Positions 531 to 33,941 of a DNA stretch of 64,000 bases are shown here, in pieces (positions within the stretch are counted from its first letter, which is position 1; the number at the start of each line of letters is the position of its first letter). The notes under the pieces are model-generated. The model made no database searches. It was not told where the DNA came from and saw nothing but the letters and a program-made list of their open reading frames with translations. The stretch covers positions 1,502,394 through 1,566,393 of the forward strand of contig OY282377.1 in NCBI GenBank assembly GCA_958295785.1, written 5' to 3'. Origin of the DNA: an uncultured Latescibacterota bacterium (GTDB lineage: Bacteria; Latescibacterota; UBA2968). Both the position numbers and the translations under genes were made by a program.

Positions 531-3500
531 ATGAACCGTTGCACCATCCCAACCAAACTGACCCCCTGCATTTTCGCGTTGCTCTGCCTCGCGTCTATCG
601 CACAGGCTTCTTCGCCACCCGCAGAGGACAATGTGCATTTTTGCCAAGTTCTCGATTACGAAGACATGCGCGCACGCGATAGCCTCTACGCCGCACGCAA
701 GCAGGCGTTTAATCTGAACGTTGGCGAACCTCGCACGGTGCGGATGATCTACTTCTTGCCCAATGACCGGCCGTTTCGCCAAGAAGTGGTCGATTCGATG
801 AAAACGAAGATCCGTCAGGTTCAGACTTTTTTCCGCGATCAGATGCGCGCAAATGGATACGGGGACATGACCTTCCGCTTTGAAACCGACGCAGGGGGCA
901 ACCCGATGGTTCATCGCGTAGATGGTCAATACTCCGATAGCCACTATCTTGACGACACAGTTGGCACTGTACGTGACGAGGTTGAACAGGCGTTTGATCT
1001 CTCGGCGAACGTCTATCTCATCGTCTTTGACAATAGTATAGATGCAATTGGTTTTAGTGATGGAACTCAGGCGGGTGGATTTGCTTATTCGGGGGGAAGA
1101 AATAGCGGTCATGCGTATGTTCCAGGCGGATTTAGCTTTTTTATAGCCGCGCATGAACTTGGACATACCTTTGACTTGGGTCACGATTGGAGGGATCGGA
1201 GGTATATCATGTCGTATGGCGGGGCAGATAAAGAACGAGCACGGTTATCAGCGTGTGCTGCCGAGTTTTTGGCCGTGCATCCCTACTTCAATCCGGATAT
1301 TCCAGATGAAGAGACACCGCCACCAACCCTCGAGCGCATTTCATCGCTTTCATATCCGCCAGGATCAACAAGTGTCCCTGTCCAACTCAAAGTCCATGAT
1401 CCTGATGGGCTTCATCAAGTGTGGTTATGGGTTGGAGGGGGATTAAAGATGTGCCAGGGATTAAACGGCGAACAAGATGCCATCGTTCAATTCGATTATG
1501 ATGGCGTTATTCCATCTGTTGAAGACCCTTATGGCTCGGGCACAAGCCTTTCTAATCCTCCTGTGCATAATCTTTATATCCGTGTAGTTGATACTGGCGG
1601 AAATGTTAGTTCATGGGTGGATGGAGATTTTCCCCTGTGGAACACTGAAAATGAACGCAATATTATCGCCACGCTTGAGGGGCATACGAGTGATGTCGGT
1701 TCAGTTTCGTTTTCGCCCGATGGTTCAACGCTTGCATCTGGGTCAAGAGATAACACGGTCAAGTTGTGGGATGTGGCAACGAGACAAAACATCGCCACGC
1801 TTGAGGGGCATACGAGTGAGGTCTGGTCAGTTTCGTTTTCGCCCGATGGTTCAACGCTTGCATCTGGGTCTCATGATAACACGGTCAAGCTGTGGGATGT
1901 GGCAACGAGACAGAACATCGCCACGCTCACGGGGCATAGGAATAATGTCATTTCAGTTTCGTTTTCGCCCGATGGTTCAACGCTTGCATCTGGGGGGGGA
2001 TGGGGGGATAACACGGTCAAGTTGTGGGATGTGGCAACGAGACAAAACATCGCCACGCTTGAGGCGACGAGTCCGTTCGGTTCAGTATCGTTTTCGCCCG
2101 ATGGTTCAACGCTTGCATCTGGGTCTCATGATAACACGGTCAAGCTGTGGGATGTGGCAACGAGACAAAACATCGCCACGCTTGAAGGGCATAGGAATTA
2201 TGTCAATTCAGTTTCGTTTTCGCCCGATGGTTCAACGCTCGCTTCAGGGTCAAGTGATCGCACGGTCAAGCTGTGGGATGTGGCAACGAGACAGAACATC
2301 GCCACGCTTGAAGGGCATACGTATTGGGTCACTTCAGTTTCGTTTTCGCCCGATGGCAGCACCCTCGCATCAGGGTCATGGGATAAAACGATCAAGCTGT
2401 GGGATATGGCGACAAGGCGCAATATTGAGACCCTTTACGGTAAGGGTGAGATCACTTCCCTGGCATTTTCACCCGACGGGAATATTCTCGCATCCGGATC
2501 ATGGAAAACCTCCAATGACAATGCCCAGGTGGTACTGTGGGATATGCAGGCAATCCTGCAATCGCAACCTCAAGCCTTGGTGAAAATCTCAGGCGATAAC
2601 CAGCAAGGCGTGTCAGGTGAAGCACTGACGAATCCGTTTGTCGTTGAAGTGCGAAATAAAAACGGGGTTGGGCTCGCTGGTTTTCCGGTTAGATTTACCG
2701 TCACCGCAGGCGATGGAAAACTCAGCGGGCGGTTCAGTGGTGAGAACGCAACAACCGATGCCAATGGCAGGGCGCAAAGCACATTGACGCTTGGAGACTA
2801 TTCGGGCACAAACACTGTTGAGGCGGCATCTGTCGCTGGCCTTAAGGTGGCCTTCAGTGCCGTGGGGGTTGGAACGCCTACGCCGCCGATTGGGAGCGAT
2901 TATCAGACATGGCATTTACCCGAAGGGGCAATCGCTCGCTTGGGAAAAGGAACAATGCGGGAAGTCGCGTTTTCGCCTGATGGTTCACTTCTCGCTGTGG
3001 CAAGTAGCTTTGGCATTTGGCTTTATGACGCGGCGACCTCTCGTGAACTCGCGCTACTCCTTGGGCATACGAGTGATGTCAATTCAGTTTCGTTTTCGCC
3101 CGATGGCAGAATCCTCGCATCAGGGTCTTATGATCACACGGTCAAGTTGTGGGATGTGGCAACGAGACGGAACATCGCCACGCTCGAGGCGCATAGGGGT
3201 AGTGTCGGTTCAGTTTCGTTTTCGCCCGATGGTTCAACGCTTGCATCTGGGGGGGGATGGGGGGATAACACGGTCAAGTTGTGGGATGTGGCAACGAGAC
3301 AAAACATCGCCACGCTTACAGGGCATACGAGTGAGGTCAATTCAGTTTCGTTTTCGCCCGATGGTTCAACGCTTGCATCTGGGTCTTATGATCACACGGT
3401 CAAGTTGTGGGATGTGGCAACGAGACGGAACATCGCTACGCTTGAGGGGCATACGAGTGAGGTCAATTCAGTTTCGTTTTCGCCCGATGGTTCAACGCTT

Positions 3501-5315
3501 GCATCTGGGTCATCGGATAACACGGTCAAGTTGTGGGATGTGGCAACGAGACGGAACATCGCCACGCTTGAGGGGCATAGGAATAATGTCACTTCAGTTT
3601 CGTTTTCGCCCGATGGTAGCACCCTCGCATCTGGGTCATGGGATTACGCGGTCAAGTTGTGGGATGTGGCAACGAGACGGAACATCGCCACGCTTGAGGG
3701 GCGTTCGCTTGGGGTCATTTCAGTTTCGTTTTCGCCCGATGGTTCAACGCTTGCATCAGGGTCATGGGATAACACGGTCAAACTGTGGGATGTGGCAACG
3801 AAGAGCTGGAACTTCTTTACACATACAGGGGTCGTCGAAAAAGTTTCGTTTTCGCCCGATGGTAGCACCCTCGCATCAGGGTCTTATGATGGCATCAAGT
3901 TGTGGGATGTGGCAACGAGACGGAACATCGCCACGCTCGAGGGGCGTTCGAGTGATGTCAATTCAGTTTCGTTTTCGCCCGATGGCAGCACCCTCGCATC
4001 AGGGTCTTATGATGGCAGGGTCAAGTTGTGGGATGTGGCAACGAGACAAAACATCGCCACGCTTGAGGGGCATTCGCTTTGGGTCATTTCAGTTTCGTTT
4101 TCGCCCGATGGCAGCACCCTCGCATCAGGGTCAAGAGATAACACGGTCAAGTTGTGGGATGTGGCAACGAGACAAAACATCGCCACGCTTGAGGGGCATA
4201 GGAATTATGTCTATTCAGTTTCGTTTTCGCCCGATGGTTCAACGCTCGCATCAGGGTCAAGTGATCGCACGGTCAAGTTGTGGGATGTGGCAACGAGACG
4301 GAACATCGCCACGCTTGAAGGGCATACGAGTGCTGTCAGTTCAGTTTCGTTTTCGCCCGATGGCAGCACCCTCGCATCAGGGTCATGGGATCACACGGTC
4401 AAGTTGTGGAATGTGGCAACGAGACAAAACATCGCCACGCTCAGGGGGCATAGGGGTTGGGTCGAATCAGTTTCGTTTTCGCCCGATGGTAGCACCCTCG
4501 CATCAGGGTCATGGGATTACGCGGTCAAGTTGTGGGATGTGGCAACGAGACGGAACATCGCCACGCTCAGGGGGCATAGGGGTATTGTCATTTCAGTTTC
4601 GTTTTCGCCCGATGGCAGCACCCTCGCATCAGGGGCAAGAGATAACACGGTTCTGCTGTGGGATATGTCGCCGTATATCACGCCGCTCACCTCCTTTTCA
4701 CTTTCTCTGGATGGAGATGGCGCAGCGGGCGATCAAGCGGTGACAACGCTCGATGTTTCGCCCGGGCCGGTTGCGACCATTCAGGTCTTTGGCAAAGGGA
4801 TTCGGCAGGCCACCGGCATTTCTGCGCGTTTTGAATACGATTCAGCGCAGGTGGCTTACGAGGGCTTTGACGCGGGCGGTCTTTTGCCCAATGTACAGGT
4901 GCTTGCCGTGTCTTCAACAAATCCAACGGCTGTCGAGATCGATCTCGTCTCTTTTGGCGGACAAGCCACAGCCGATAGGGGCCTGGTGGGCAATGTTCGC
5001 TTTCGCAGAATGAGCGCGTTTTCCGGCACAACGCTTCGGTTGGTGCGCGCCGAACTCGGCCGAGGAACGCAACGCGAGCGCGTGATGTTTGCCAATACCC
5101 ACATCACCTTACAACCCGCGGCCGCGGCACTGACGCCCGACTTCAATGGCGATGGCAGAGTTGATTCTGCCGACTTTGTGTTGTTCACCGCGCAATACGG
5201 ATTGCGTCAAGGCGACCCGGGATACGATGCGTGGTACGATCTGGATGGCGATGGCACCATTGGCTTCGGCGATTTCCTGATGTTCGGCAGTGCCTTTGGT
5301 CGGGAAGGGTCATAG
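531..5315 (+). CDS. Secreted metzincin-like / WD40-repeat mosaic protein with Big-1, cohesin-like and dockerin-like domains
   Basis: The product has 1594 residues. Residues 1-27 form a signal peptide. Residues about 60-260 resemble a zinc metalloprotease of the metzincin type: AHELGHTFDLGH (about 207-218) fits HExxHxxxxxH, although the usual Gly is Asp, and YIMSYG follows as a candidate Met-turn. Seven WD40 repeats follow (about 378-671), then a Big-1 (bacterial Ig-like) domain (about 681-780, SGEALTNPFVVEVRNKNGVG), 14 more WD40 repeats (about 792-1380), a cohesin-like domain (about 1386-1527), and two dockerin/EF-hand-type calcium loops (DFNGDGRVDSADF and DLDGDGTIGFGDF). The start is supported by AAAGGAGA eight bases upstream. 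It probably works outside the cell, as a scaffold or protease; its substrate is unknown. No terminator follows directly; a hairpin lies 480 bp downstream. Confidence 0.85.
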   Translation: MNRCTIPTKLTPCIFALLCLASIAQASSPPAEDNVHFCQVLDYEDMRARDSLYAARKQAFNLNVGEPRTVRMIYFLPNDRPFRQEVVDSMKTKIRQVQTFFRDQMRANGYGDMTFRFETDAGGNPMVHRVDGQYSDSHYLDDTVGTVRDEVEQAFDLSANVYLIVFDNSIDAIGFSDGTQAGGFAYSGGRNSGHAYVPGGFSFFIAAHELGHTFDLGHDWRDRRYIMSYGGADKERARLSACAAEFLAVHPYFNPDIPDEETPPPTLERISSLSYPPGSTSVPVQLKVHDPDGLHQVWLWVGGGLKMCQGLNGEQDAIVQFDYDGVIPSVEDPYGSGTSLSNPPVHNLYIRVVDTGGNVSSWVDGDFPLWNTENERNIIATLEGHTSDVGSVSFSPDGSTLASGSRDNTVKLWDVATRQNIATLEGHTSEVWSVSFSPDGSTLASGSHDNTVKLWDVATRQNIATLTGHRNNVISVSFSPDGSTLASGGGWGDNTVKLWDVATRQNIATLEATSPFGSVSFSPDGSTLASGSHDNTVKLWDVATRQNIATLEGHRNYVNSVSFSPDGSTLASGSSDRTVKLWDVATRQNIATLEGHTYWVTSVSFSPDGSTLASGSWDKTIKLWDMATRRNIETLYGKGEITSLAFSPDGNILASGSWKTSNDNAQVVLWDMQAILQSQPQALVKISGDNQQGVSGEALTNPFVVEVRNKNGVGLAGFPVRFTVTAGDGKLSGRFSGENATTDANGRAQSTLTLGDYSGTNTVEAASVAGLKVAFSAVGVGTPTPPIGSDYQTWHLPEGAIARLGKGTMREVAFSPDGSLLAVASSFGIWLYDAATSRELALLLGHTSDVNSVSFSPDGRILASGSYDHTVKLWDVATRRNIATLEAHRGSVGSVSFSPDGSTLASGGGWGDNTVKLWDVATRQNIATLTGHTSEVNSVSFSPDGSTLASGSYDHTVKLWDVATRRNIATLEGHTSEVNSVSFSPDGSTLASGSSDNTVKLWDVATRRNIATLEGHRNNVTSVSFSPDGSTLASGSWDYAVKLWDVATRRNIATLEGRSLGVISVSFSPDGSTLASGSWDNTVKLWDVATKSWNFFTHTGVVEKVSFSPDGSTLASGSYDGIKLWDVATRRNIATLEGRSSDVNSVSFSPDGSTLASGSYDGRVKLWDVATRQNIATLEGHSLWVISVSFSPDGSTLASGSRDNTVKLWDVATRQNIATLEGHRNYVYSVSFSPDGSTLASGSSDRTVKLWDVATRRNIATLEGHTSAVSSVSFSPDGSTLASGSWDHTVKLWNVATRQNIATLRGHRGWVESVSFSPDGSTLASGSWDYAVKLWDVATRRNIATLRGHRGIVISVSFSPDGSTLASGARDNTVLLWDMSPYITPLTSFSLSLDGDGAAGDQAVTTLDVSPGPVATIQVFGKGIRQATGISARFEYDSAQVAYEGFDAGGLLPNVQVLAVSSTNPTAVEIDLVSFGGQATADRGLVGNVRFRRMSAFSGTTLRLVRAELGRGTQRERVMFANTHITLQPAAAALTPDFNGDGRVDSADFVLFTAQYGLRQGDPGYDAWYDLDGDGTIGFGDFLMFGSAFGREGS
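1660..4665 (+). repeat. Near-identical 126-bp tandem coding repeats (WD40), blocks of 7 and 14
   Basis: The WD40 modules of the preceding gene are 42 residues (126 bp) each, and large parts are identical at nucleotide level, for example the core SVSFSPDGSTLASGS and the linker KLWDVATRQN. Block 1 (about 1660-2545) has 7 units, the last one diverged. Block 2 (about 2908-4670) has 14, the first diverged. Two units carry the same GGGWGDNTV insertion (about 1990 and 3250), which points to unit copying between blocks. Low divergence implies recent expansion or gene conversion. Confidence 0.9.
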
Positions 5316-7008: not shown

Positions 7009-8001
7009 ATGCGTCAATACGATGTGTATGGGTTGGGCAACGCGCTGGTGGACATTCAGTATCGGGTCGCGCCATCGTTTTTTGAGGCGATGGGGATCGA
7101 CAAGGGGGTGATGACGCTGATTGGCGAAGCCCGCCAGCGCGCGTTGATCCAGGCGTTGGGCGGCCGGGAAATGGCGCGGTCGTCGGGCGGTTCAGCGGCC
7201 AATGCGATGATCGCGTTGGTCAATTGCGGGGGAAAGGGGTATTGCGGATGCAAGGTAGCAAAAGATGCGGATGGCGATTTTTATCTGCGCGATCTGCGCG
7301 CTGCGGGCGTGGCGTCCAATCCGTCCAATCGCGGGGAGGGGATTACGGGCAAGTGTTTGGTGATGATTACAGCGGATGCGGATCGCACGATGAATACATT
7401 TTTGGGAATTACGAGCACGTTTGGCCCCGATCAGGTTGAGGAATCGGTGATCGCCGCCAGCCAATTCATTTACATCGAAGGCTATTTGGTCGCAACCGAA
7501 GATGGTTTTGAAGCGGCGCGGGTGGCGCAACAGGTCGCACAAGAGCGCGGCACAAAGGTCGCGCTGACCCTGAGCGATCCGTCTGTTGTGGCGGCGTTTA
7601 AGGATCGAATGGTCGCGTTGGTCGATGCGGGGGTGGATATGTTGTTTTGCAATGAAGACGAGGCCGCGATGTTCGCCGATGCCGAGACCACAGAAGCGGC
7701 TTTTGAGGTGCTGAGTGGTCGGGTCGCGCGTTTGGCCCTCACGCGCGGCGCGACTGGCGCGTGGGTCTGCGATGGCAGAGATGTGTTGCACGCGCCGGGA
7801 TTTGAGGTGGAAGCCGTGGATACCAATGGCGCGGGCGATGCGTTTGCCGGCGCGTATTTGTTCGCCATCACCCACGGCTATGACGCGGCGCGGGCGGCGC
7901 GGCTTGCGACTTGTGTTTCCTCGCAGGTGGTCGCCAAATACGGCCCGCGCTTTGAACGAAAATTGAATGCGGCAGACATCGCCCACCTATTGGATTTATG
8001 A
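7009..8001 (+). CDS. PfkB-family carbohydrate/nucleoside kinase (adenosine kinase-like)
   Basis: The 330-residue product has the ribokinase/PfkB fold. The N-terminal substrate-binding signature SGGSAANAMIAL lies near residues 55-66 and the C-terminal catalytic signature DTNGAGDAFAGAYLF near 265-280; its second Asp is the expected catalytic base. These kinases transfer phosphate from ATP to sugars or nucleosides in the cytoplasm. The pattern is closest to adenosine kinase-type members, but substrate cannot be fixed from sequence alone. I chose ATG 7009 over the in-frame start 33 bases upstream because GGCGAGGAG sits just before it. It is a single-gene unit, with the tandem promoter-like array starting 15 bp after its stop. 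Confidence 0.88.
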   Translation: MRQYDVYGLGNALVDIQYRVAPSFFEAMGIDKGVMTLIGEARQRALIQALGGREMARSSGGSAANAMIALVNCGGKGYCGCKVAKDADGDFYLRDLRAAGVASNPSNRGEGITGKCLVMITADADRTMNTFLGITSTFGPDQVEESVIAASQFIYIEGYLVATEDGFEAARVAQQVAQERGTKVALTLSDPSVVAAFKDRMVALVDAGVDMLFCNEDEAAMFADAETTEAAFEVLSGRVARLALTRGATGAWVCDGRDVLHAPGFEVEAVDTNGAGDAFAGAYLFAITHGYDAARAARLATCVSSQVVAKYGPRFERKLNAADIAHLLDL

Positions 8002-8016: not shown

Positions 8017-8246
8017 CGCGGACGCGATAAATATTCCTTGACAAGATCGTTTGTGCGTTATTTTTTTTCGCGGACGCGATAAATATTCCTTGACAAGATC
8101 GTTTGTGTGTTATTTTTTTTCGCGGACGCGATAAATATTCCTTAAATTTTCCTTGACAAGATCGTTTGTGCGTTATTCTTTTTCGCGGACGCGATAAATA
8201 TTCCTTAAATTTTCCTTGACAAGATCGTTTGTGCGTTATTCTTTTT
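8017..8246 (+). promoter_or_regulatory. Four tandem promoter-like direct repeats (two of 52 bp, two of 63 bp)
   Basis: Units start at 8017, 8069, 8121 and 8184. Each begins CGCGGACGCGATAAATATTCC and each carries a consensus -35 hexamer TTGACA followed 15 bp later by TATTCT or TATTTT. Units 3 and 4 have an extra 11 bp (TTAAATTTTCC) before the TTGACA. The array lies upstream of the envelope operon beginning at 8421. A further promoter-like pair (TTGCAT, 16 bp, TATTCT) lies just downstream, about 8354-8381. Confidence 0.75.
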
Positions 8247-8420
8247 CATTAGCTTAATAAACCAATTCAGATGTTTTTATTTTAGCGTTGCGATTCACAA
8301 AATTTTGAATTTCTTTTTCGCGCTCCAAAAGCATTTTGAGGAAGAAAAAAATGCTTGCATTGTACACATTCGGCATTATTCTACTCGTCCTTTTTTAATC
8401 CCAAATCCAAGGAGGTACCT
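8247..8420 (+). promoter_or_regulatory. Leader region of the envelope operon
   Basis: A 174-bp A/T-rich leader between the tandem array and the TTG start at 8421. It contains a promoter-like TTGCAT-16-TATTCT (about 8354-8381) and the strong Shine-Dalgarno GGAGG at 8411-8415, which decides the start of the next gene. Confidence 0.5.
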
Positions 8421-9245
8421 TTGAAAAAATTGTCGTTGATTTTGTTCGCCGGGATTTTCTCAGTCGCATCTTGTGTCGATGCCCGGGATACGGGCATGTG
8501 GGCCGTTGGCGGTCTGGTGAGTTACCACCAGCCAACCGGCTCTTTGAACGGTTGGTACGCGGGCGATTTGAAGTTCGGCGTGAATGTGAGTTATGTGATT
8601 TCGCCACGCCTGACCACAGAGATTGAATACCACTACTCGAAGTTGGGCAGATCAAATCTTCCCGGTCGCACGTTCACATATCGCGAGGGGCGTCAGGTTC
8701 CAAGCCCGGATGCCGATTCGGAGATGACGTGGAACAGCGTGTCCTCGAATTGGCTGTGGTTTTTTCGGGAAAATGCCGAGACGATGTCCGACCGGAAATG
8801 GTCGCCGTATTTGGGCTTGGGGCTTGGGTTTTACAACTATAGCCATAAAGTCAGAGGTTTGATCTATCCATCCCAAGGCCGTATCCCCAATGAATTGAGC
8901 GGTTCGTCAACGGGCAATGTGCGCGTGGTTCTCGTGTATAATGGCAGCCCGGATCTGGATGCACAAACGATGACCGAAGAGCAAAGGAGCAACATTGGGC
9001 AGGTGGTCAACGGGGAGGTGTTGTTGTGGGGATTACCGCCTACGGAGGATACGCGCACCGCGTGGACCATTCCCATCAGTGCTGGTGTTGAAGGATCGAT
9101 GGGAGCGTCTTACGGGATTGATTTTCGCGTGCGTTACAATTTGATCTTCGGCGAGATCAATCCCTTGACAGCATGGGGATTGAATAAGGCGTTTCCGATG
9201 GGGACATTGGATGCCGGCGTGAGTTTCAAATACTATTTCGATTAA
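8421..9245 (+). CDS. Outer-membrane beta-barrel protein
   Basis: The 274-residue product starts at a TTG codon five bases after GGAGG. Residues 1-24 (LKKLSLILFAGIFSVASC) form a signal peptide; the VASC end could be a lipobox, but this is uncertain. The rest is alternating polar/hydrophobic sequence with aromatic girdles (VSYVISPRLTTEIEYHYSKLG, with YLGLGLGFYNYS and a C-terminal GVSFKYYFD ending in an aromatic plus Asp), typical of small OmpW/OmpA-like barrels. The function is probably structural or porin-like in the outer membrane. It is the first gene of a run with the TonB receptor 54 bp downstream. The exact family is not recognised. Confidence 0.75.
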   Translation: MKKLSLILFAGIFSVASCVDARDTGMWAVGGLVSYHQPTGSLNGWYAGDLKFGVNVSYVISPRLTTEIEYHYSKLGRSNLPGRTFTYREGRQVPSPDADSEMTWNSVSSNWLWFFRENAETMSDRKWSPYLGLGLGFYNYSHKVRGLIYPSQGRIPNELSGSSTGNVRVVLVYNGSPDLDAQTMTEEQRSNIGQVVNGEVLLWGLPPTEDTRTAWTIPISAGVEGSMGASYGIDFRVRYNLIFGEINPLTAWGLNKAFPMGTLDAGVSFKYYFD

Positions 9246-9299: not shown

Positions 9300-12200
9300 A
9301 TGGGCAAACGATTCTTGTTTTGTTGGATCTTGTTGGGCGCGTTGCTGATCTATACGGGATTGGCGCGGGCGGGCACGACGGGTAAAATCAGCGGGAAGGT
9401 CGCGGAGGTTACGGGTGACCCGCTTCCCGGCGCCAATGTGGTGATCGATATCGACGGCGTGAAACGCGCCGGGATCACCGACGAGAAGGGGGAATACTTC
9501 ATCATCAATATCCCGCCTGGGACTTACGATATCGAAACCGTGATGATGGGATATTCAAAGTCTGTTCGCACGGGCGTGGTGATCAATGTCGATCATACCA
9601 CGACGGTGAACTTTGAGATGCAGGAAGAAGCACTTCAACTCGGCGAGATGATCGTCGTTGCCGAGCGGCCGCCAGTGGAGCACGACAAGACCGAGAGCAA
9701 GTCGGTCATCACGGCAGAAGAGATCGAGGCGTTGCCCATTGTGCGCGAAATGTCGGATTTTGTGGAGTTGCAGGCGGGTGTGACGCCGGATGAAGAAGAG
9801 AGCGTTCGCGGCGGCAACTTCTGGGAAACGGCGTATATGGTGGATGGCGTGCGCGTGGTGAACAATGACGCGCGCGCCGGGTTTACGCGCTTTCAAGGCG
9901 TGAACACCAGCGCGGTGCAAGAACTGACCGTGTTGAGCGGCGGGATGAACGCGGAGTACGGCAATGCCGGGTCCGTGGTTTCGGTGGTGACCAAAGAAGG
10001 CGGTCAGAAATACACGGGCAGGGGCGAATACCGCATCACGCCGCCGGGGCAGAAGCACTGGGGCGCAAACGTGTACGAGGCGCCCGTGCATCGCGGCAGA
10101 ATGCAGTGGGGCAACAGCGAGTGGGAAAACTTGCAAGCGTGGTTCCCCGGCCCCGATGGGACTTTGGGGCACAGCAACGAGACGGGGGAAATTACCGATG
10201 CCCAATTTGCCGCTGACGACATGCAGCGCAAGGTTCACGTCCGCCAAGACTACACGGGCGTGTGGGGCGGGCGCGGCGAGGCCATGCTCGGCGGGCCGAT
10301 CAGGAGGCGGATGGGCTTCACGTTGACGTCTTCGATGAATCGCAATCCGTCATCATTGCCCGCGCCGACGGCGACCTCGCTGTTCAACAACCGCACGAAC
10401 TTGAAGTTGACCTATCGCCCGGGCAGCAATATCAAATTCAATTACGGCTCGCTGTTCAATCAGCGGGCGCGCTACAACGCGGGCGTTATTCGGCGCATCG
10501 AGCAGGGGTCGCGCAAGAATATGAACTCTTCGGGCCGCAACCTCTTTGTCCCCTCAGAATACTCGGGGGCGGGCAAGTTGCGGACGCGCGATTTTATGAA
10601 TTATGCGTCATTGACGCACACCTTGTCTGCGCGCACGTTTTACGAAATTCGCGTGTCGTATTCGCGCACATCCGAGGTGAATACGGAATTGCCGGTCAAC
10701 ACGGATCAGCCCTATGTGGAGCCGGGCATTGGCAGTGAATCGGGTTGGTACTACATCGGTCGCCCGGTGGTGAACTGGACGGATTCCAGGCGGGATCGCC
10801 TCCAGATCAAGTTCGACTATTCGAGCCAAGTGACCAAGGGGCACTTCATCAAAACCGGGTTGGACTTGTTGTTTTTCGACAACTGGGGCTTTTCCCGCAA
10901 CAAGAACGACTTTCGGGGCCTGATCGACAGGTATTACAGCCAGTTCAACAACCCCGGCGTGGGGGTGATGCCGCGCCAGTACTCGATCTACTTTCAAGAC
11001 AAGATGGAGTTCGAGGGCATTGTGGTGAACGTGGGGTTGCGCGGGTTGCGCTGGAGCCCGAACACCGAGATGCCGCAGGCGGAACATTTTATGCCGCTGT
11101 ACAAGTATCACGATCCCACAAAGGTCGAGAATATCCCGACCTATCGCCCGCAGGCCGTTCAGGTCTTGTCGCCGCGCGTGGGGGTGTCGCATCCGATTAC
11201 AGAGAGCAGCGCGATGCACTTCACGTTTGGCAAGTTCGAGCAGATCGAGCAGTTCTGGTGGATTTTCTCACACAGCTATCGCACGGAAGACGATTTTATT
11301 GATATGAACCAGAATGGGCGGATCGACGAGTCTGAGTTGTACAATTCGCAGGATGTCGTGGATGCCGGGCAGTGGGGATGGCCGAAGATCAGGCCATTGG
11401 TGACCACGAGCTTTGAGGTGGGTGCAGACTGGAACTTCATCACGGATTACACGGCGGGCCTGACCGCGTATTACAAGCAGCAGGTCAACCGGCGCAGCGG
11501 TGGCAATTACCAAGTTCAGTCTCAGGGGTTGCAGCACAACCGCTCGGTGGCGGCATCGGGGCAGACGAACAACCGGGACACGCGCGGCTTTGAGTTGTCG
11601 CTCAAGAAGAAATTCAACCACATGACCGCGTTCACGATTGCGTACAATGTGCAGTGGGTCGAAAATGGCAACTCGGGCGTGCGCGGCGCGCACTATATCA
11701 ATCCGGACAGGCTGGCGACCAAGAACCCGTCCAATTTTGGCAACTACGCGGGTTACATCGACAACGATGGCAATTTCCTGTCGCACTATTGGTATGAGTG
11801 GACCGCGGATTCCAATGGCGATGGCGATTTTGCCGGCGAAGAAGGCGTCGCTGGGCCGGGGATCGTCAATGGCAATGACACGGGCGAAGAGTTCCCCAGG
11901 CCAATGGACGGGATTACGCGCTTTCAACGGGCGCAAGCATTTGGCAGCCAAGCGCGCAATCAACTCGAACTGGTCGAAGATGGCGTCGGGCGCAACAACT
12001 GGTCGTTGGATCAAGAACACAGCTTGCTCAACTGGGATGGCAAAGGCGCCTCGACCTGGTTGCAGCGCAACAACCAGTCTCAAGAGTTTCGCCCGGCCAA
12101 TTTGAACCGCACCAACTTCGGCACGGTGACGTTTATGTTTTCGTCTCCCAAGGCGTTTGGCCCGCGCTTTGTGGGCTTTCGCCCCTTTGAGAATTTGCGT

Positions 12201-12578
12201 CTCAATGTGGTGTATCGCCTGTTCACCGGGCGCAGGTTTTTCTATTCGCCGCCGGAAAAGGGCGGTGAAGGGTTTTACAACGGGCCGATTCACACGCGCA
12301 CGGATCTCAATTTTGAGAAGACGTTTAATTTCAACAGGCGCGCGAGCATGACGATCTTTTTTGAATCGTTCAACCTGTTCAACCAGAAAGACCCGCACAT
12401 CAGCTATCGCGTGGATAATCAGTTGGTGGAAGTGGGCGCCGAGTACGTGGAATGGGGCGTGATTTACACGCCGTTGCCGGACAACCCCGAATACATCTCT
12501 TACGGCGATGTGGGGGATTATTTGCGATTCCAGGATTCGCCTCGCGAGTTCCACTTTGGTTTGCGGATGAAATTTTAG
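9300..12578 (+). CDS. TonB-dependent receptor with N-terminal carboxypeptidase-regulatory-like domain
   Basis: The 1092-residue product has a signal peptide (about 1-25), a carboxypeptidase-regulatory-like Ig domain (about 30-110, GKISGKVAEVTGDPLPGANV to TTTVNFEM), a plug domain (about 115-240, ITAEEIEALPIVREMSDFVE and YMVDGVRVVN) and a long barrel ending FHFGLRMKF with the terminal aromatic expected for assembly. Receptors of this type import or sense bulky substrates using TonB energy. No substrate is evident. GGAGGGTCGTAT precedes the ATG. The neighbours are the FlgD-tailed secreted protein and PorV-like gene, an arrangement seen in envelope operons of Bacteroidetes-like phyla. Note the DSNGDGDF-like segment near residue 840, possibly a calcium loop. 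Confidence 0.93.
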   Translation: MGKRFLFCWILLGALLIYTGLARAGTTGKISGKVAEVTGDPLPGANVVIDIDGVKRAGITDEKGEYFIINIPPGTYDIETVMMGYSKSVRTGVVINVDHTTTVNFEMQEEALQLGEMIVVAERPPVEHDKTESKSVITAEEIEALPIVREMSDFVELQAGVTPDEEESVRGGNFWETAYMVDGVRVVNNDARAGFTRFQGVNTSAVQELTVLSGGMNAEYGNAGSVVSVVTKEGGQKYTGRGEYRITPPGQKHWGANVYEAPVHRGRMQWGNSEWENLQAWFPGPDGTLGHSNETGEITDAQFAADDMQRKVHVRQDYTGVWGGRGEAMLGGPIRRRMGFTLTSSMNRNPSSLPAPTATSLFNNRTNLKLTYRPGSNIKFNYGSLFNQRARYNAGVIRRIEQGSRKNMNSSGRNLFVPSEYSGAGKLRTRDFMNYASLTHTLSARTFYEIRVSYSRTSEVNTELPVNTDQPYVEPGIGSESGWYYIGRPVVNWTDSRRDRLQIKFDYSSQVTKGHFIKTGLDLLFFDNWGFSRNKNDFRGLIDRYYSQFNNPGVGVMPRQYSIYFQDKMEFEGIVVNVGLRGLRWSPNTEMPQAEHFMPLYKYHDPTKVENIPTYRPQAVQVLSPRVGVSHPITESSAMHFTFGKFEQIEQFWWIFSHSYRTEDDFIDMNQNGRIDESELYNSQDVVDAGQWGWPKIRPLVTTSFEVGADWNFITDYTAGLTAYYKQQVNRRSGGNYQVQSQGLQHNRSVAASGQTNNRDTRGFELSLKKKFNHMTAFTIAYNVQWVENGNSGVRGAHYINPDRLATKNPSNFGNYAGYIDNDGNFLSHYWYEWTADSNGDGDFAGEEGVAGPGIVNGNDTGEEFPRPMDGITRFQRAQAFGSQARNQLELVEDGVGRNNWSLDQEHSLLNWDGKGASTWLQRNNQSQEFRPANLNRTNFGTVTFMFSSPKAFGPRFVGFRPFENLRLNVVYRLFTGRRFFYSPPEKGGEGFYNGPIHTRTDLNFEKTFNFNRRASMTIFFESFNLFNQKDPHISYRVDNQLVEVGAEYVEWGVIYTPLPDNPEYISYGDVGDYLRFQDSPREFHFGLRMKF

Positions 12579-15377: not shown

Positions 15378-16403
15378 ATGAAACGATTGATTTGGATGGC
15401 GGCTATCGCGCTGTTTCTCGGCCCTTACAACAGCACTGTGGCACAGGAAACCCAGCCCCTCACGAGTGAGACCGAGGACCTCGAGCCCGTGTTTGGGGAC
15501 GGGCATTATCGCTCGGAAGGCGATAGGGGCAACCGCATTGCGCGCAGTGGGTTCACGCTTTTGAAATTGTCTGCATCGGCGCGCTTGGCGGGCATGGCCG
15601 ATGCCAATGTGGGCACGTCGCGCGATATTCACGCGATTTTCCAAAATGCCGCCGGGTTGGTGCATATTGACCGCATCGGGTATGTGGCGTCTTACAACCA
15701 GTGGTTGGTGGGCACGCGGATGGGGGCCGCGGGTTTGGCCTATCGCATTCCCGTGGGGGTTGTGGGCCTCTCTATTCGCTCGTTCACCTATCCGGATGTG
15801 GAAGAGACCACGCCCTTGCAACCCGATGGCACGGGGAATAATATCGAGCTCGGGGATTTTGCTGTCGGGTTGTCATTTGCCAAGCAGTTGACCGACAAGT
15901 TTTCCCTGGGGTTTCGCTTGCAATACGCGCGGTCGCAACTTCACGATGTCACCAGTGTGAGTTCCACGACATTTGACATTGGCACCATTTTTTACACGGG
16001 CTTTAGGAGTTTGCGCGTGGGCATGACCATCAGCAACTTGGGCGGCAATGTGGAAGTGTTGACCGAAGACTATCGCCTGCCGTTTTTCTACAACTTGGCC
16101 CTTGCGATGGAATTGGTCGGGAAGGAAGGCGATCCGATGTACCTGACCGCTGCGTATGAGCATGTGTTCTACCGCGATTACGGGGAGCGCGATCACATCG
16201 GCGGCGAGTTGTGGTTGCAGAATATTTTGGCCCTTCGCGCCGGTTACAAGTTCCGCTACGATGTGGAGAGTTGGAGCGTGGGCGCGGGCGTGAATTTGAA
16301 TGTGAGCGAAGACCGCGAGTTGAGCGTGGATGTTTCGTATAGCGACATCGGCGGAAAGATCCAAGAGCGACCGTTGCGTTTGACCCTTTCGGGGACGTTC
16401 TAA
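15378..16403 (+). CDS. PorV/PorQ-family outer-membrane protein
   Basis: The 341-residue product has a signal peptide (1-22) and a FadL-like barrel. The N-terminal SGFTLLKLSASARLAGMADA followed by DIHAIFQNAAGL is the hallmark of the PorV/PorQ (UPF0164) family. In the type IX secretion system PorV shuttles exported cargo to the attachment complex. No other type IX core genes are in the window, so a full system is not shown. It follows the FlgD-tailed protein by 21 bp with its own GCGAGGAG site. A G+C-rich inverted sequence (GGCCCAAGGGCC) lies just after the stop. Confidence 0.82.
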   Translation: MKRLIWMAAIALFLGPYNSTVAQETQPLTSETEDLEPVFGDGHYRSEGDRGNRIARSGFTLLKLSASARLAGMADANVGTSRDIHAIFQNAAGLVHIDRIGYVASYNQWLVGTRMGAAGLAYRIPVGVVGLSIRSFTYPDVEETTPLQPDGTGNNIELGDFAVGLSFAKQLTDKFSLGFRLQYARSQLHDVTSVSSTTFDIGTIFYTGFRSLRVGMTISNLGGNVEVLTEDYRLPFFYNLALAMELVGKEGDPMYLTAAYEHVFYRDYGERDHIGGELWLQNILALRAGYKFRYDVESWSVGAGVNLNVSEDRELSVDVSYSDIGGKIQERPLRLTLSGTF

Positions 16404-32612: not shown

Positions 32613-32927
32613 CACTGGCTTACGGCGTTTTGGCACAGGCTCTGCAACGCCACTGTCTGGATCGCGGATTGTCGCGGATTAGGGGATTGCGCGGATTACC
32701 CCCCCCTCCTGCCTCCGCTCTGTCCTCTCTGTCTGCTCCATTCTCCGTCCTCTATCTGCACGCCCCAATGTTTGTCCCTCTGTGGTTGCCTTTTCGGGCG
32801 GGCACGGGGGCACCGCCCCTACGTTTTTATTTTCGCATCTTTGTCCAACAAAGTCTTGTCAAAAATGGCGTGATTGTGTAATTTTTGTTCCCCATTTTTT
32901 TTCATCAATTTTTTCAAGGTGGCGTTT
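32613..32927. other. Intergenic stretch with an inverted palindrome-family member
   Basis: No gene is recognised. It contains ATCGCGGATTGTCGCGGATT-type phrases (about 32660-32695), a palindromic repeat in reverse orientation (CGGGCGGGCACGGGGGCACC then GCCCCTAC, 32795-32822), and an A/T-rich leader before the next gene. Confidence 0.6.
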
Positions 32928-33941
32928 ATGGCCGAATACGATACGATATCCAAACACCTGATTCAAACCTACCCGGACGATTTCATCCGCTTCACACTCG
33001 GACGCGCTGACATCGAGGTGCTCGAGGTGCTCGAAACCGAGCAACCCACTGTGGAAGCCCGGCGCGCCGATAGCCTGATTCTCGTGCGTATTGAGGGTGA
33101 GGATGCGTTGATTCATTGCGAATTTCAAACCGCGGACAGCACGGACACTCCGATGTCGCATCGCATGGCCGGCTATATCGGTCGCGCCATAGAACGCTAT
33201 GGCCTGCCGATCTTTTCCTTTGTGATCTACCTGCGTCCCGGTGCTGGACGACGCGATAAGGGATACTACATCCAAGAACTGCCCGGCCACCGCGTTGTCG
33301 TGGAATATCAGGTGATTCGTCTGAGTGAGATCGATGGTCAAGCGATTATCGAGGGTGGTCATCCGGGCTTGCTTCCGTTTGCGCCATTGATGAAGCCTCC
33401 GTCTGGCGTGTCTGCGGATGCGTGGTTGCGTCAATGTCTTCAAGCGACGGAAGCCTTGCCCTTGGACGCTTCAACCAAGGTTGACATGATGGCGGGTATG
33501 GCTATTTTAGGTGGGATATCGTATGAATTGTCCACCGTTAGGCGTATTATTTCTCAGGAGGGTTTTATGGATGCGATTATGCGTGAATCATCGTTTGCCC
33601 AATACCTTACGCAACAAGGTATTGACCGCGGCATTGAACAGGGGATTGAACAGGGGATTGAACAGGGGATTGAACAGGGGATTGAACAGGGGATTGAACA
33701 GGGGATGCGTCGCGGCAGGGAGCAAGGGATTGAACAGGGTCTGGAGCGCGGGATTAGAGAAAGCACCATTGAAGCTATTTTCGATGTGTTGGAGGTTCGC
33801 TTTGATGCGGACGCGCCCGGTCAGTTCGCCGGTCGCATTCGGGCCATTGACGATTTGCAACAACTCAAGCAGTTGCATCGTGCGGCGGTGCAAGTGGACA
33901 ATCTCGATGCTTTTCAGCATGCGTTGGACGCAGAGGCTTAG
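32928..33941 (+). CDS. PD-(D/E)XK nuclease family protein (Rpn/transposase-associated type)
   Basis: The 337-residue product begins MAEYDTISKHLIQTYPDDF. RRADSLILVRIEGEDALIHC followed by EFQ gives the Asp and Glu-x-Gln of the Rpn-type PD-(D/E)XK core, and IFSFVIYLRPG a later strand. These proteins are linked to recombination and are often found near mobile DNA. Residues about 225-275 hold a run of (G)IEQ repeats encoded by a 12-bp tandem unit. ATG 32928 has AAGGTGG 10 bases upstream. The stop TAG (33939-33941) lies in the 4-bp flank of miniature element D, so the natural C-terminus may have been cut. Confidence 0.82.
   Translation: MAEYDTISKHLIQTYPDDFIRFTLGRADIEVLEVLETEQPTVEARRADSLILVRIEGEDALIHCEFQTADSTDTPMSHRMAGYIGRAIERYGLPIFSFVIYLRPGAGRRDKGYYIQELPGHRVVVEYQVIRLSEIDGQAIIEGGHPGLLPFAPLMKPPSGVSADAWLRQCLQATEALPLDASTKVDMMAGMAILGGISYELSTVRRIISQEGFMDAIMRESSFAQYLTQQGIDRGIEQGIEQGIEQGIEQGIEQGIEQGMRRGREQGIEQGLERGIRESTIEAIFDVLEVRFDADAPGQFAGRIRAIDDLQQLKQLHRAAVQVDNLDAFQHALDAEA
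33630..33715 (+). repeat. 12-bp coding microsatellite (GIEQ repeats)
   Basis: About seven tandem copies of ATTGAACAGGGG inside the nuclease gene, encoding IEQG units, probably an extended or coiled helix. The unit is a multiple of three, so slippage would change length without shifting frame. Confidence 0.85.

Follow-up and report, generated by a model that had tools for sequence, protein, structure and literature searches.

Four tandem promoter-like units upstream of an outer-membrane operon in an uncultured Latescibacterota bacterium

Why would an outer-membrane operon be preceded by four near-identical promoter-like units, and where could such an arrangement have come from? The array that raises this question occupies positions 8017-8246 of a 64,000-nucleotide stretch of DNA (the window; G000:C1:1502394-1566393), part of a complete 5.66-Mb genome. 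Its neighbours are a PfkB-family kinase gene, whose stop is at 8001, and, starting with TTG at 8421, a gene for a 274-aa protein (8421-9245, + strand) that has a signal peptide, appears from its sequence to be a beta-barrel and has no match in Pfam or NCBIfam. This gene heads a run that continues with a TonB-dependent receptor (9300-12578, + strand) containing an N-terminal carboxypeptidase-regulatory-like domain and a Plug domain, a 914-aa protein, a PorV/PorQ-family outer-membrane protein (15378-16403, + strand; NF033709, 157 bits against a cut-off of 90), a 440-aa protein and a DUF1800/DUF1501 pair. The nearest named records for the receptor gene are Candidatus Latescibacterota MAGs. Elsewhere in the window, positions 531-5315 encode a secreted protein of 1594 aa whose roughly 20 WD40 repeats are near-identical in DNA (126-bp tandem units), and L084 has a similar WD40 array.

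Reading the sequence resolves 8017-8246 into four units arranged head to tail, the first two 52 bp and the last two 63 bp long, and Tandem Repeats Finder recovers the identical array. Together with a count of the 25-mer core TTGACAAGATCGTTTGTGCGTTATT, which has four matches in the window at up to 3 mismatches against 0.00 expected by chance, these results bear out the earlier note's description of two unit lengths, each unit with TTGACA and a -10-like hexamer 15 bp downstream. The layout is CGCGGACGCGATAAATATTCC, then TTAAATTTTCC in the 63-bp form, then TTGACAAGATCGTTTGTGYGTTATTYTTTTT. Unit 1 (8017-8068) comprises CGCGGACGCG, an AT tract of the TAAATATTCC type and TTGACA at 8038-8043, separated by 15 bp from TATTTT at 8059-8064; unit 2 (8069-8120; TTGACA 8090-8095, TATTTT 8111-8116) differs from it by one substitution. 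Unit 3 (8121-8183; TTGACA 8153-8158, TATTCT 8174-8179) has the additional TTAAATTTTCC and is exactly identical to unit 4 (8184-8246; TTGACA 8216-8221, TATTCT 8237-8242), from which transcription is predicted to start at about 8249. The spacer is 15 bp in all four. All units lie on the + strand, in the gene's direction, and on anatomical grounds alone at least two promoter-like units precede the same operon. Each of them also carries a short CGCG-GA-CGCG dyad. The two lengths correspond to 4.95 and 6.0 helical turns, with the 11-bp difference close to one turn, and being near whole turns they would align all units along one side of the helix. No intrinsic terminator was found within the array, and no ORF of at least 80 aa with a start codon crosses it.

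The unit is confined to this locus. BLAST and pattern searches returned no copy elsewhere in the 5.66-Mb genome, so that the scattered occurrences which the earlier note had named as evidence against its reading did not turn up; nor was the unit found in 25 searched relatives (best other match, E = 0.02). A dispersed repeat (REP, MITE) or mobile element was dismissed on account of this confinement. In a broader search of 61 genomes for three TTGACA hexamers spaced 36-64 bp, the window's genome yielded the array and two others, near 3.94 Mb and 2.93 Mb. As candidates for a similar design, the former was dismissed because it lies inside a long reading frame and the latter as coiled-coil coding sequence, judged by inspection only; with that case so judged, the array is the sole set of at least three TTGACA outside long reading frames in this genome. 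The same search returned an unrepeated TTGACA cluster in G034 and, at a contig end in G016 (L114, G016:C17:12-273), a noncoding tandem repeat of about 64 bp with TTGACAAGATTATCAGGATCGGG that is unrelated to the array. Two sites at 1,492,329 and 2,592,585 (TTGACACTTGAGATATGTKTGTTATTCT, spacer 16) resemble the -10 region of the unit and were set aside as not homologous to it.

Whether these units resemble promoters can be judged against the genome itself. The pattern TTGACA-N12..22-TATANT has 63 genome matches compared to 8 for the reversed control, and TTGACA-N12..22-TATTNT has 142 compared to 11. The latter enrichment marks a genuine signature of this genome and upholds the description of the units as promoter-like sites before an envelope operon. 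Some TTGACA...TATTNT matches repeat one multi-copy coding sequence; these were collapsed before spacers were counted. Among the distinct matches listed, the spacer peaks at 17 bp (27/57 and 34/66), and 15 bp is rare (2/57 and 2/66), in agreement with the earlier remark that the units' spacers are shorter than usual. The -35 hexamer is a perfect TTGACA in every unit and the -10 hexamers, TATTTT and TATTCT, are of the type enriched in this genome, while the 15-bp spacer places all units outside the 16-18 bp range used here as a sigma-70 criterion. In E. coli, sigma-70 promoter spacers range from 15 to 21 bp, and consensus promoters give high expression at every spacer from 15 to 19 bp, with the highest at 17 (PMC8695583). 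By sequence, then, the units are off-optimum sigma-70-type promoter-like sites, suboptimal rather than excluded. The short spacer had been taken to mean that an activator or alternative factor may be needed. Since some other sites in the genome also have 15 bp and E. coli tolerates this length, it argues for lower strength and creates no demand for either. No literature on promoters of the phylum Latescibacterota was found, and the locus offers a first view of promoter grammar (TTGACA-17-TATA/TATT) in this uncultured phylum.

Two other repeated sequences occur in this genome. The sequence TTGACATGATGGCGGGTATGGCTATTTT, with about 20 copies listed genome-wide, occurs in the window at 33481-33508 within an ORF at 32874-33941. 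There it is coding (VDMMAGMAILGG) and belongs to a 355-aa gene that has a 12-bp ATTGAACAGGGG tandem repeat at 33633-33706 and is a member of a multi-copy gene family. A promoter-like 28-mer, TTGACAACCTAAACTTTCTTGTTATATT, has about seven exact genome copies (for instance, G000:C1 986041-986068, 2966237-2966264 and 3627695-3627722) and is probably part of a mobile element.

The array is not the only promoter-like element ahead of the operon. A proximal promoter-like site, TTGCAT-16-TATTCT (8355-8382, + strand), has a counterpart in 10/10 congeneric species, where it reads TTGTCT-17-TATACT/TATAAT or a close variant and stands directly 5' of the ribosome-binding site (in the window AAGGAGG, 8409-8415, + strand; invariant among relatives). 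It is a better promoter-like match than the units and much closer to the gene, and it is probably the main promoter of the operon. Because the array sits 110-340 bp upstream of it, the array is a distal addition. The earlier note overlooked this site, as well as the fact, described below, that sister species have the unit's counterpart in single copy. The putative leader running from unit 4 to the gene (8249-8420, + strand; about 172 nt) shows no unusual folding (z = 0.89) and no Rfam match at E <= 1, and a riboswitch or other structured leader was dismissed on these grounds. A small ORF at 8351 (ATGCTTGCA...) was likewise dismissed, as it is not conserved and overlaps the proximal site.

The homologous gap was read in 10 congeneric species, nine of which reach far enough upstream to be informative. 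It measures about 420 bp in the window and 590-930 bp in the five relatives with both flanking genes aligned. The array is absent from every congener read. Instead, each of the nine carries TTTTCGTTGACAAGGTTRTTTTAAC once per genome, always at the homologous gap. One of these genomes, G008 (OX638329), is a complete chromosome in a single contig, which makes collapse of repeats in short-read assembly unlikely there, although it could apply to some other relatives. The block TGTTACAAATTTTAACAAACTTTTCGTTGACAAGGTTRTTTTAACTCTTTTAT is the best conserved part of the gap, with 94-98% mean pairwise identity in 20-column windows across the nine congeners; its flanks reach about 70-80% and the proximal promoter 79-91% in the same alignment. 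This single element shares with the array its position in the gap and the TTGACAAG core, and it aligns without gaps to the 63-bp unit at 30/50 positions, a score reached by 14 of 2000 shuffles. With TTGACAAG removed, 22/42 positions still match (P ~0.004), so that the sequence evidence for homology beyond that core is moderate. Sequence 3' of unit 4 can be aligned to the leader of the relatives, and unit 4 is therefore probably in its original place.

The conserved element has an ambiguous -10. Candidates in the relatives are TTTTAT/TATTAT at 15 bp, TTATTT at 17 and TATTTM at 18, and most of them miss a key base. Upstream of TTGACAAGG lies an operator-like dyad, TGTTA-N7-TAACA, that is strictly conserved in the nine relatives (in L059, about 30 bases 5' of the TTGACA at 4638). 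In contrast to these single-copy loci, the window species has not preserved the dyad. The ambiguous -10 and the dyad together suggest that the conserved distal element could be a site for a regulator or another protein.

Nine congeners with a single homologous element and a shared proximal promoter make it most likely that the array arose in this lineage, by tandem amplification of a conserved distal element that lies 5' of the main promoter. Parsimony favours one copy as the ancestral state, and the fourfold copying of the element is an unusual yet understandable change. In a tree of the receptor gene, the branch of the window species measures 0.15, compared to about 0.04 in the others. The 63-bp form is probably the older unit, as it is the one that matches the relatives' element without gaps. 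The 52-bp form lacks 11 bp located between two TTCCTT copies, the pattern that slippage would give, and it may thus have arisen from the 63-bp form by loss between these repeats. Since units 3 and 4 do not differ at all and a single base separates unit 1 from unit 2, the amplification was either recent or has been kept uniform. The same gap has a history of repeats in sister species: just downstream of the PfkB gene, REP-like palindromes (CGTCATCGCGGC...GCCGCGATCCAG, about 65 bp) occur singly or in tandem runs of up to about 6 copies (L062:690-1040, L064:4330-4750, L059, L058 and L063). Such units are nearly absent from a 0.86-Mb sample of the window's genome. Their presence in the relatives identifies the gap as a place where tandem repeats grow.

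What the four copies do is a separate matter. On balance, we lean towards the view that the array is a fourfold amplified distal promoter element that adds weak starts to those of the proximal promoter. Each unit would bind the housekeeping (sigma-70-type) RNA polymerase, though only weakly, given a perfect -35 and an acceptable -10 but a spacer 2 bp short. Transcripts starting at the units would pass through 170-350 nt of leader before reaching the operon and add to the output of the conserved proximal promoter. One RNA polymerase has a footprint of about 75 bp. With units spaced at 52-63 bp, neighbours would exclude each other and the gain would remain less than fourfold. The predicted outcome is a raised basal transcription of the operon from up to four additional weak, mutually interfering starts.

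Other readings assign the copies a different role or none at all. The units may be binding sites for a putative regulator, with TTGACA as part of the site; the array would then provide the proximal promoter with several upstream operator or activator sites in place of one. This is an unlikely alternative. The relatives' block opens with the TGTTA-N7-TAACA dyad and is conserved better than the proximal promoter; yet the units of the window do not keep this dyad, while the CGCG-GA-CGCG dyad that they do contain is absent from the relatives. Helical phasing of all units on one face is a weak argument for such sites, as two in-phase lengths by chance are not very rare (a few per cent). Moreover, no regulator was identified, and an element present once per genome provides no regulon for comparison. 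A further elaboration, in which the conserved distal element was amplified into a helically phased, copy-number-tunable enhancer that acts on the proximal promoter through a putative regulator and not through extra starts, seems improbable.

Somewhat unlikely as well is the reading that the repeats are neutral, the product of slippage or recombination in a distal element that is no longer important where the proximal promoter suffices. The tolerance of the gap for tandem growth in sister species, the divergence of the window species from the conserved element (30/50) and the weak spacer of the units are all consistent with it. That none of the four near-identical units has lost TTGACA or the -10-like hexamer argues against neutrality, although recent duplication alone could also explain such uniformity. 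The earlier idea that unit number tunes expression leads to a last reading, a contingency array in which the number changes within a population and tunes or switches the operon; we consider this doubtful. Near-identical tandem units of 52-63 bp, whose two forms record at least one indel event, would suit it, as would the precedent of Neisseria and Haemophilus, where promoter repeats adjust the expression of surface proteins (review, PMC3899988). Against it, the copy number was read from one genome of the species, the contrast of one copy in sister species and four in the window is a difference between species and not between strains, and the known cases are short repeats (TAAA, TA, G runs) that alter spacing or regulator reach and do not duplicate whole promoters.

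Addition of weak distal starts remains our preferred account, and the array joins a known kind, that of tandem promoters and promoter repeats. It is an apparent natural amplification of a whole promoter-like unit, rather than of a short repeat, before an outer-membrane operon. As the single-copy state is visible in nine sister species, the locus provides a modest natural experiment on the way in which the number and spacing of promoters determine expression. In Neisseria nadA and porA and Haemophilus hifA/hifB, variable tandem repeats lie in the promoters of surface-protein genes (PMC3899988). The array is like them in having repeats upstream of envelope genes and a potential for copy-number change, whereas their repeats are 1-4 bp long and alter spacing or regulator geometry, and here the repeated units are whole, promoter-like and 52-63 bp long. 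Tandem sigma-70 promoters, natural and engineered, are another parallel: tandem tac core promoters (MCPtacs) in E. coli gave a stepwise gain, about 4.4-fold at five copies (PMC3293061). MCPtacs and the array are alike in placing several units, promoter-like by sequence in the array, head to tail before one operon, and in both each further copy would be expected to raise strength until a limit is reached. In contrast to the optimal units of MCPtacs, those of the array are natural, have 15-bp spacers and are followed by a separate proximal promoter downstream.
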